Shown: one piece after another, positions 13,987-14,873 of the stretch
How positions within the stretch are numbered: position 1 is the stretch's first letter
How the letters are laid out: every line of letters begins with the position of its first letter
Source of the DNA: Bacillota bacterium
GTDB taxonomy: Bacteria > Bacillota > Desulfitobacteriia > Desulfitobacteriales > JAJXUE01
DNA: 50,784 nt
NCBI GenBank assembly: GCA_021783135.1
Contig: JAJXUE010000016.1
Location: 1-50,784 of the forward strand
Reading direction: 5' to 3'
The notes under the pieces: model-generated
What the model saw: the letters and a program-made list of their open reading frames with translations, nothing else
The model's database searches: none
What the model was told of the DNA's origin: nothing
Translations under genes and position numbers: made by a program

Positions 13987-14115
13987 ATGCATGTGCGTTT
14001 AATGGTCCTGTATTACCAACCAGCAGTCTACGTGCCTGACTACTATGGGGTATTAAAGTTTACTATTCCACTTAACCAATTAAGTGATATTATTAAGGCA
14101 AATCTGTTGGATTAA
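13987..14115 (+). CDS. small protein (40-42 residues) preceding the selenoglutaredoxin
   Basis: Short open frame with an unusually strong AAGGAGGGG ribosome site. The ATG at 13987 is very close to that site, so the GTG at 13993 (8 bases from AGGAGG) is the more likely start, giving about 40 residues beginning RLMVLYYQPAVYVPD. No known family recognised. It sits 19 bases after the kinase stop and 15 bases before the glutaredoxin start, so it is probably in the same transcript. The sequence is mixed hydrophobic/polar without a clear membrane helix. It may be a real small protein or a translated leader. Confidence 0.5.
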   Translation: MHVRLMVLYYQPAVYVPDYYGVLKFTIPLNQLSDIIKANLLD

Positions 14116-14130
14116 AAAGGGGGCATCGAC

Positions 14131-14469
14131 ATGAAACAAGTTGTTATGTTTACGAACAACACCTGACCATACTGTACTATGGCCAAGAAGTTTCTTGTGC
14201 AGAATAACATCCATTTTGAGGAGCGTAATGTCAGCGTAGATTATGCTGCTGCCCAGGAATTGCAAAAACGTAATATTCGCGGAGTGCCGGCGTTTTTTGT
14301 CGGGGATGATGTAATCGTGGGGTTTGACCAAGCCAAACTTTTACAGCTGATTGACCATCGCTTGCAGCAGTGCCCTCAGTGCAGCACTAAGTTGCGAGTG
14401 CCGGTAAATAAAGGCAAACTGGAAGTTAAATGCCCCAAATGCGCGACAAAGTTTGAGGTAACTACATAA
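14131..14469 (+). CDS. selenocysteine glutaredoxin fused to a C-terminal zinc ribbon (UGA at residue 12)
   Basis: Full length is 112 residues when the in-frame TGA at 14164-14166 is read as selenocysteine; a simple ORF call gives only the part from 14179. The ATG at 14131 has AAAGGGGG upstream. The translation KQVVMFTNNTUPYC places the TGA exactly at the first, nucleophilic cysteine of the glutaredoxin CPYC motif (U12, C15). The remaining glutaredoxin marks are present: GVPAFFV with the cis-proline (P53) and VGFD at 63-66. Residues 81-110 carry CPQC and CPKC, a zinc-ribbon-like pair not part of ordinary glutaredoxin. A fitting SECIS-like hairpin lies 23 bases after the UGA. Selenoprotein glutaredoxins are known from some Clostridia; the ribbon fusion is the unusual part. 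The thioesterase gene follows after 2 bases. Confidence 0.88.
14184..14197 (+). promoter_or_regulatory. candidate bacterial SECIS element inside the glutaredoxin gene
   Basis: CAAGAA, GU, TTCTTG forms a 6-bp stem; opening the last A-U pair gives a 4-base AGUU loop. The apical G/U lies 23 bases after the UGA, within the 16-37 base window described for bacterial SECIS elements, which need a G among the first loop bases. Needs folding and comparison with homologues. Confidence 0.6.
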
Positions 14470-14471
14470 AC

Positions 14472-14873
14472 ATGACAATTGACAAAGCAGAAATATTGCG
14501 CGTATTTGCGCACGACTATTTAGCCCAATTGCTAGGTATTGAGATTGTGGATGTCGATTATGGCATCGCAAGGGTAAGGGGTATAGTTACTAAGCAAATG
14601 TTAAATGCTTTAGGCAAAACACATGGCGCAGCACTCTTTGCCATAGCCGATTTCGCGTTGGCGGTGGCCAGCAATTCCTATGGGGAACCCGCTGTATCAA
14701 CTAATGTCTCGATCAATTACCTGAAATCATCCACTCTGGGCACCGTGATTGAAGCAACTGCTACCGAAGAAAACAGAAGTCGCAAAATGGGACTGTACCG
14801 GATTGAAATCTGCGATGACAAAGCGCACAAGCTCGCCCTAGCGCACGGCGAGGTATACTTACTTGGTAAATAG
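14472..14873 (+). CDS. PaaI-type hotdog thioesterase
   Basis: 133 residues, the usual size for a single hotdog domain. The motif NALGKTHGAALFAIADFALA matches the PaaI group, where Asn, the HG pair and Asp of the long helix form the acyl-CoA site; STNVSINYLKSS is the following strand. These enzymes hydrolyse (hydroxy)phenylacetyl-CoA or other acyl-CoA esters as tetramers. It begins 2 bases after the glutaredoxin stop with no strong ribosome site of its own, so translation is probably coupled. The functional link to the selenoprotein is unclear. Confidence 0.85.
   Translation: MTIDKAEILRVFAHDYLAQLLGIEIVDVDYGIARVRGIVTKQMLNALGKTHGAALFAIADFALAVASNSYGEPAVSTNVSINYLKSSTLGTVIEATATEENRSRKMGLYRIEICDDKAHKLALAHGEVYLLGK

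Follow-up and report, generated by a model that had tools for sequence, protein, structure and literature searches.

The gene at 14131–14469 of the window (the whole stretch of 50,784 nucleotides analyzed here) very probably encodes a selenoprotein in which a glutaredoxin (Grx) domain is fused to a C-terminal four-cysteine ribbon. Comparative evidence supports this assignment at the level of the recoding signal, the exchange of selenocysteine (Sec) and cysteine at the active site, the Sec machinery, the domain architecture, and the conservation of the CxxC pairs. The features of the locus are listed below.

14116–14123, + strand: Shine–Dalgarno-like sequence AAAGGGGG, 7 nt 5′ of the ATG
14131–14469, + strand: predicted Sec-glutaredoxin/zinc-ribbon coding frame, 112 amino acids with UGA read as Sec, TAA stop at 14467–14469; homologues align over the full length
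14131–14355, + strand: glutaredoxin domain, residues 1–75 (PF00462; AlphaFold2 pLDDT 85; Foldseek top match cGrx1, 7c10)
14164–14166, + strand: in-frame TGA, predicted Sec12, at the catalytic position of U-P-Y-C; TGA or TGC/TGT in 52 of 52 ribbon homologues
14173–14175, + strand: Cys15, the resolving cysteine of UPYC, invariant
14182–14200, + strand: predicted bacterial SECIS hairpin, 7 pairs and one bulge, loop AGUU at 14189–14192
14371–14463, + strand: four-cysteine ribbon CPQC-x16-CPKC, residues 81–111 (sub-threshold zinc-ribbon/MJ0042 matches, four invariant cysteines, modeled strands)
14472–14873, + strand: 4HBT-family thioesterase gene (PF03061, E = 6e-11), starting 2 nt past the Grx stop

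The full protein, with U for the TGA at 14164, reads MKQVVMFTNNTUPYCTMAKKFLVQNNIHFEERNVSVDYAAAQELQKRNIRGVPAFFVGDDVIVGFDQAKLLQLIDHRLQQCPQCSTKLRVPVNKGKLEVKCPKCATKFEVTT, with CPQCSTKLRVPVNKGKLEVKCPKCATKFEVTT as its C-terminal part, and contains a single internal stop. The translation thus agrees with the sequence-only reading of this DNA, according to which a glutaredoxin frame from the ATG at 14131 is interrupted only by the TGA at 14164, at the position of the first cysteine of a CPYC motif. The same reading had held that ordinary gene calls would begin at 14179, past the active site, and the list of open reading frames indeed starts the gene there. Genes of this kind would consequently resemble inactive fragments in ordinary annotation.

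Homologues were gathered by searching related genomes and GTDB contigs. The resulting ribbon set comprises 52 distinct sequences, 34 with Sec (the window included) and 18 with Cys. Full-length Grx-ribbon homologues are found in Desulfosporosinus, Paradesulfitobacterium, Acididesulfobacillus, Syntrophomonas, a Pelotomaculum metagenome-assembled genome (MAG), Acetobacterium, Fusibacter, and other MAGs, and the TGA forms are spread over several Bacillota families. Position 12 had been singled out as the place where relatives should carry either Cys or UGA; codon 12 is TGA in the 33 further distinct Grx-ribbon sequences and TGC or TGT in 18, and no other residue occurs there. No variation occurs in the 52 sequences at Cys15, the VP motif (V52–P53), or any of the four cysteines of the ribbon. 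Natural Cys counterparts are present in Acetobacterium, Fusibacter, and Acetoanaerobium, and some Desulfosporosinus genomes hold a UGA copy together with a Cys copy (D. metallidurans, loci L061 and L072). No relatives were found on viral contigs, and the plasmid search returned one match, a Cys form in a record of Acetoanaerobium noterae. The Cys gene lies in this record (NZ_CP154629.1), a 2.63-Mb circular sequence with 4 annotated features that is filed as a plasmid and has the appearance of a chromosome.

The codon 12 pattern bears directly on whether the TGA is a nonsense mutation of a TGC or TGT codon in a pseudogene, or a sequencing error. Both Cys codons are one change away from TGA, and an error is conceivable in any single sequence. 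However, independent assemblies and different genera supply 33 other distinct ribbon sequences with the same TGA, the frame is intact on both sides, both ribbon CxxC pairs are invariant, and the genome contains Sec genes. Because TGA and Cys codons are the only states at codon 12 over 52 sequences, neither mutation nor error can explain the pattern; the conservation of TGA across homologues rules out this source, which we regard as highly improbable.

An equally slim chance attaches to a protein that starts at ATG 14179 (Met17), giving a truncated Grx-ribbon protein without the active site, with the upstream part acting as a decoy or regulatory leader. This start does give the longest ordinary open reading frame, but it has no preceding Shine–Dalgarno sequence. 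Just 15 of the 48 rows counted (mostly TGA forms, duplicates included) have Met at residue 17, the others having T, V, P, A, Q, S, I, or K, whereas residues 1–16 are conserved at the protein level in homologues, including the UPxC motif. A G-rich Shine–Dalgarno sequence precedes most of the homologous starts, as it does at 14131. Directly upstream of the Grx gene lies a 42-codon open reading frame (13987–14112, also given as 13987–14115), which has a strong Shine–Dalgarno sequence, GAAGGAGGGG. It has no family match, and the fetched loci gave a single weak match to it but no clear homologue.

The sequence-only reading had made its proposal depend on selA, selB, selC, and selD in the genome. 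The window's own genome encodes selA (591 bits), selB (382 bits), two copies of selD, and a tRNA-Sec with a UCA anticodon 96 nt downstream of selB. Of the genomes of the order, 31 of the 33 that have a UGA Grx contain selA, compared with 20 of the 41 that have none (P = 3e-5). The two UGA-Grx genomes that lack a selA match are incomplete assemblies, and both possess selB and tRNA-Sec. Genome-wide reassignment of UGA to Trp, Gly, or Cys would open the frame as well, but its probability is negligible, since TGA also serves as an ordinary stop in window genes (7 of 36 long ones), ends the ribbon gene itself in several relatives, and coexists with the UCA-anticodon tRNA-Sec, selA, selB, and selD, which argues for local recoding. 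The two selD genes each contain one in-frame TGA, one of them in the context GUGCK, and SelD of this genome is probably itself a selenoprotein.

A SECIS-like hairpin had been placed 23 bases past the UGA. The hairpin itself holds up, being conserved and in agreement with the published model, whereas the distance does not, as the loop begins after 22 nt. The bacterial SECIS model specifies a loop of 3–9 nt, a stem of 4–16 bp, a G among the first two nucleotides of the loop, a distance of 16–37 nt from the UGA, and a minimum free energy (MFE) of ≤ −7.5 (PMC13188914). The window hairpin has a 4-nt loop with G at the second position followed by U, a spacing of 22 nt, and an MFE of −7.5 over 47 nt, which lies right on the threshold. 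Taken alone the hairpin is unremarkable (z = −0.53 for the 47 nt; −6.7 kcal/mol for 28 nt), and it was therefore dropped as proof of a SECIS; compared with synonymous recodings, P is about 0.03. Because single-sequence folding is not significant, the case for a SECIS rests on comparison.

All 35 of 35 TGA forms (ribbon and short) fold at −6.2 to −10.8 kcal/mol, with a mean of −7.8, over the 28 nt around the hairpin, and 8 further TGA forms fold at −5.2 kcal/mol or better. The Cys-ribbon forms average −1.6 kcal/mol in this region, and none of the 18 has the SECIS hairpin; two distant GC-rich Cys homologues fold a hairpin at the same place. The commonest stem-loop across the forms is GCGAAAG-AGUUU-CUUUCGC. 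Its variants change in concert on both sides of the stem (GGGAAAG/CUUUCCC, CAAGAG/CUCUUG, and GCGAG/CUCGC), with compensatory changes of C–G to G–C, A–U to C–G, and A–U to G–C, and the loop reads A-G-U in nearly all forms (A-U-U in the Pelotomaculum MAG). In a pair-count control, sliding by −2 columns likewise gives paired cells and co-changes (the stem is A/U-rich), so the covariation is modest and supports, but does not prove, the structure.

Codon usage points in the same direction. At one column, 26 of 31 Ser codons are TCG, the rarest Ser codon in the window genes counted (∼9%), and at another column 30 of 32 Ala codons are GCG, which supports selection on the RNA. A tree-aware sign test of Sec against hairpin gave p = 0.25, with only three to four independent Sec/Cys switches resolved and significance thus out of reach, and a scan of the locus against Rfam gave no match. 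One short Cys glutaredoxin (L155, TGC) retains GUGAAAGAGUUUCUUUCCAAG behind its codon, nearly the SECIS of its Sec-containing tree neighbor (L156). This hairpin looks like a fossil SECIS left by a change from Sec to Cys.

The N-terminal domain of the protein is readily recognized as a glutaredoxin. Residues 4–62 match PF00462 with E = 1.3e-15 (57.8 bits; gathering score, 22.9), and the protein has the Grx fold, the [CU]PxC motif, and the VP (cis-Pro) motif. In the AlphaFold2 model (pLDDT 85, pTM 0.64), the Grx fold is followed by a four-strand tail. The best fold match in the PDB found by Foldseek is the dithiol glutaredoxin cGrx1 (7c10), with an rmsd of 0.8 Å over 73 columns.

The C terminus is organized in a separate module. 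Zinc-ribbon models (Zn_ribbon_4/5 and MJ0042) match residues 80–109 below their curated cut-offs (21.1 versus 30.3 bits and 17.9 versus 20.9 bits). The module contains two CxxC pairs, invariant in the 52 sequences, with strands predicted around the cysteines in the AlphaFold2 model, and its spacing and invariance would fit a structural Zn(Cys)4 site. That the ribbon sets the protein apart as a distinct architecture, as first proposed, is borne out by the conservation of the fusion and of all four ribbon cysteines. The ribbon resembles MJ0042-type, Zn_ribbon_4/5, and LysW ribbons in its CxxC–RVP–G–CxxC–F spacing; in contrast to these, it matches below cut-off and is fused to a glutaredoxin.

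The closest structurally characterized relative, cGrx1 of Clostridium (Alkaliphilus) oremlandii, is a natural selenoprotein whose motif is U(or C)PXC and which was studied with Cys in place of Sec (PMC7642778). The window protein shares with it the Grx fold, Sec as the first residue of UPxC, and 44% identity over 73 residues, but adds a C-terminal CxxC-x16-CxxC module that is absent from cGrx1 (PDB chain of 84 amino acids, no ribbon). cGrx1 has been proposed to reduce an MsrA that is itself a selenoprotein (PMC7642778; Kim et al. 2011, as cited in PMC13188914). Unlike in that system, the sole MsrA match in the window genome has no internal TGA, and a Sec-containing MsrA was accordingly rejected as a partner here.

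Among family models, none in NCBIfam reaches its cut-off on the protein. The best match is GlrX_YruB (TIGR02196), a short glutaredoxin-like family, with 69.9 bits against a cut-off of 88.55, and this model spans 74 positions without a ribbon. Sub-threshold matches were also obtained, from the protein and its homologues, to other glutaredoxin-like selenoproteins, the UXX-star families (NF041212, NF041211, and NF041114) and the HUGP/GUXX-star fusion NF045501, all of them under the curated cut-offs (50.5 versus 66, 30 versus 100, 23 versus 72, and 34 versus 325). The motifs listed for these are UxxT and GxGU (PMC13188914), whereas the window protein combines UPxC with a ribbon. Selenocysteine glutaredoxins as such are already known, with a UxxC motif (PMC13188914), and have been counted (PMC1794560). 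The sequence-only reading, too, had placed selenoprotein glutaredoxins in some Clostridia. A search of reviews, family libraries, and papers, covering few subscription journals, gave no Grx/zinc-ribbon selenoprotein. Because this coverage is incomplete, we only provisionally regard the Grx-ribbon fusion as a known kind of selenoprotein in a new domain architecture.

On a tree of 75 rows, built from few columns and with many weak forks, the presence of the ribbon changes twice and the Sec/Cys state six times. This suggests that the ribbon was gained once and lost once, in Desulfosporosinus, with Sec retained, and that Sec and Cys were switched several times. The ribbon-less clade consists of 75-residue Sec glutaredoxins of Desulfosporosinus that are nested among ribbon forms. 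Ribbon-less Sec glutaredoxins of 75–76 residues with the same SECIS (L023–L030 and L156) occur mostly in Desulfosporosinus-type genomes, and several genomes hold the short and the ribbon form together. For anaerobic Bacillota (Desulfosporosinus and relatives, Syntrophomonas, and others), the fusion is one more selenoprotein architecture, conserved and easy to overlook. Its natural Cys counterparts, sometimes present beside the Sec form in one genome, provide a ready set for examining what an enzyme gains from Sec.

Most likely the protein functions as a selenol-dependent thiol–disulfide reductase, with a zinc ribbon as a folded docking or specificity module. The UGA at 14164 would be decoded as Sec by SelB and tRNA-Sec, aided by the hairpin just behind it. 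The product would be an oxidoreductase of the Grx fold that has Sec-Pro-Tyr-Cys at its active site and carries a Zn(Cys)4 ribbon. The selenol of Sec12 would then attack a disulfide (or a sulfenate or persulfide), either in a partner protein or in a small thiol, and Cys15 would resolve the mixed selenide–sulfide. These roles are assigned by homology to the [CU]PxC family, in which the first Cys or Sec attacks and the second resolves (PMC7642778). The Se–S bond would be re-reduced by a thiol or by a flavin disulfide reductase. A search of the genome for the bifunctional GshAB gave no match over the cut-off and only a partial C-terminal match. The ribbon would form a folded module of its own, most likely with a structural zinc inside, through which the redox domain docks to its partner. 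Zinc binding, the reaction, the partner, and the role of the ribbon we infer; the simplest role for the ribbon would be docking or the selection of a partner, and to docking, taken by itself, we give about an even chance.

The gene neighborhood offers a weak hint at thiol or sulfane-sulfur redox chemistry, which recurs among the neighbors. The Grx-ribbon and 4HBT thioesterase genes of the window are probably co-transcribed. A 4HBT thioesterase was not found beside the homologous Grx-ribbon loci examined, nor was any partner gene or neighborhood conserved across lineages in them. Neighbors in relatives include an FMN reductase (L003, L008, and L015), a thioredoxin (L055), a DUF1638 protein (L007, L069, and L072), and a MutY-like protein. 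In Acetobacterium, a fusion of a pyridine nucleotide-disulfide oxidoreductase and a rhodanese is encoded directly downstream of the Grx-ribbon gene, and a rhodanese is found downstream in L070. A CsoR/CstR-type repressor gene immediately precedes the Grx-ribbon gene in L074 and lies nearby in L069 and L079. The repressor's cysteines are 29 residues apart, and Tyr occupies the position of the His ligand of copper-sensing CsoR, a combination that we take to be CstR-like.

These sulfur-transfer neighbors are what favors an alternative in which the same selenoprotein mainly reduces sulfane sulfur or persulfides and the ribbon docks a sulfur carrier. We consider it unlikely, as the neighbors vary by lineage, from the thioesterase in the window to the FMN reductase, thioredoxin, DUF1638, and MutY-like genes elsewhere. 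More speculative, and distinctly unlikely, is a new selenoprotein family in which the Sec center and the Zn(Cys)4 ribbon would form one functional unit with repeated natural Sec/Cys swaps, the ribbon acting as a redox-sensitive metal switch or as an acceptor site that passes electrons or sulfur from the selenol to a dedicated partner.

A ribbon acting simply as a redox or metal switch, in which oxidation by or through the selenol would free the zinc and alter partner or activity, seems to us quite improbable. Four invariant ribbon cysteines do share a chain with a nucleophilic selenol, and the sequence-only reading had suggested, speculatively, that a low-pKa selenol might be coupled to a zinc or metal site. 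However, the ribbon is equally conserved in the Cys forms, a redox switch and a plain structural zinc look the same in sequence, and coupling requires contact, which a model of moderate confidence (pTM 0.64) cannot show.

Two further observations concern the surroundings of these genes. In L007, L069, and L072, the DUF1638 gene ends 19–35 nt before the Grx-ribbon gene. DUF1638 has been tied genetically to vitamin B12 reactivation (PMC5764234), and the adjacency is a possible hint at a corrinoid-related reductive role. In L058 (7365–7772) and in Acetobacterium relatives, a 136-amino acid protein adjoining a J-domain-like gene carries a ribbon that resembles the one of the Grx protein at 41–44% over 32 residues.
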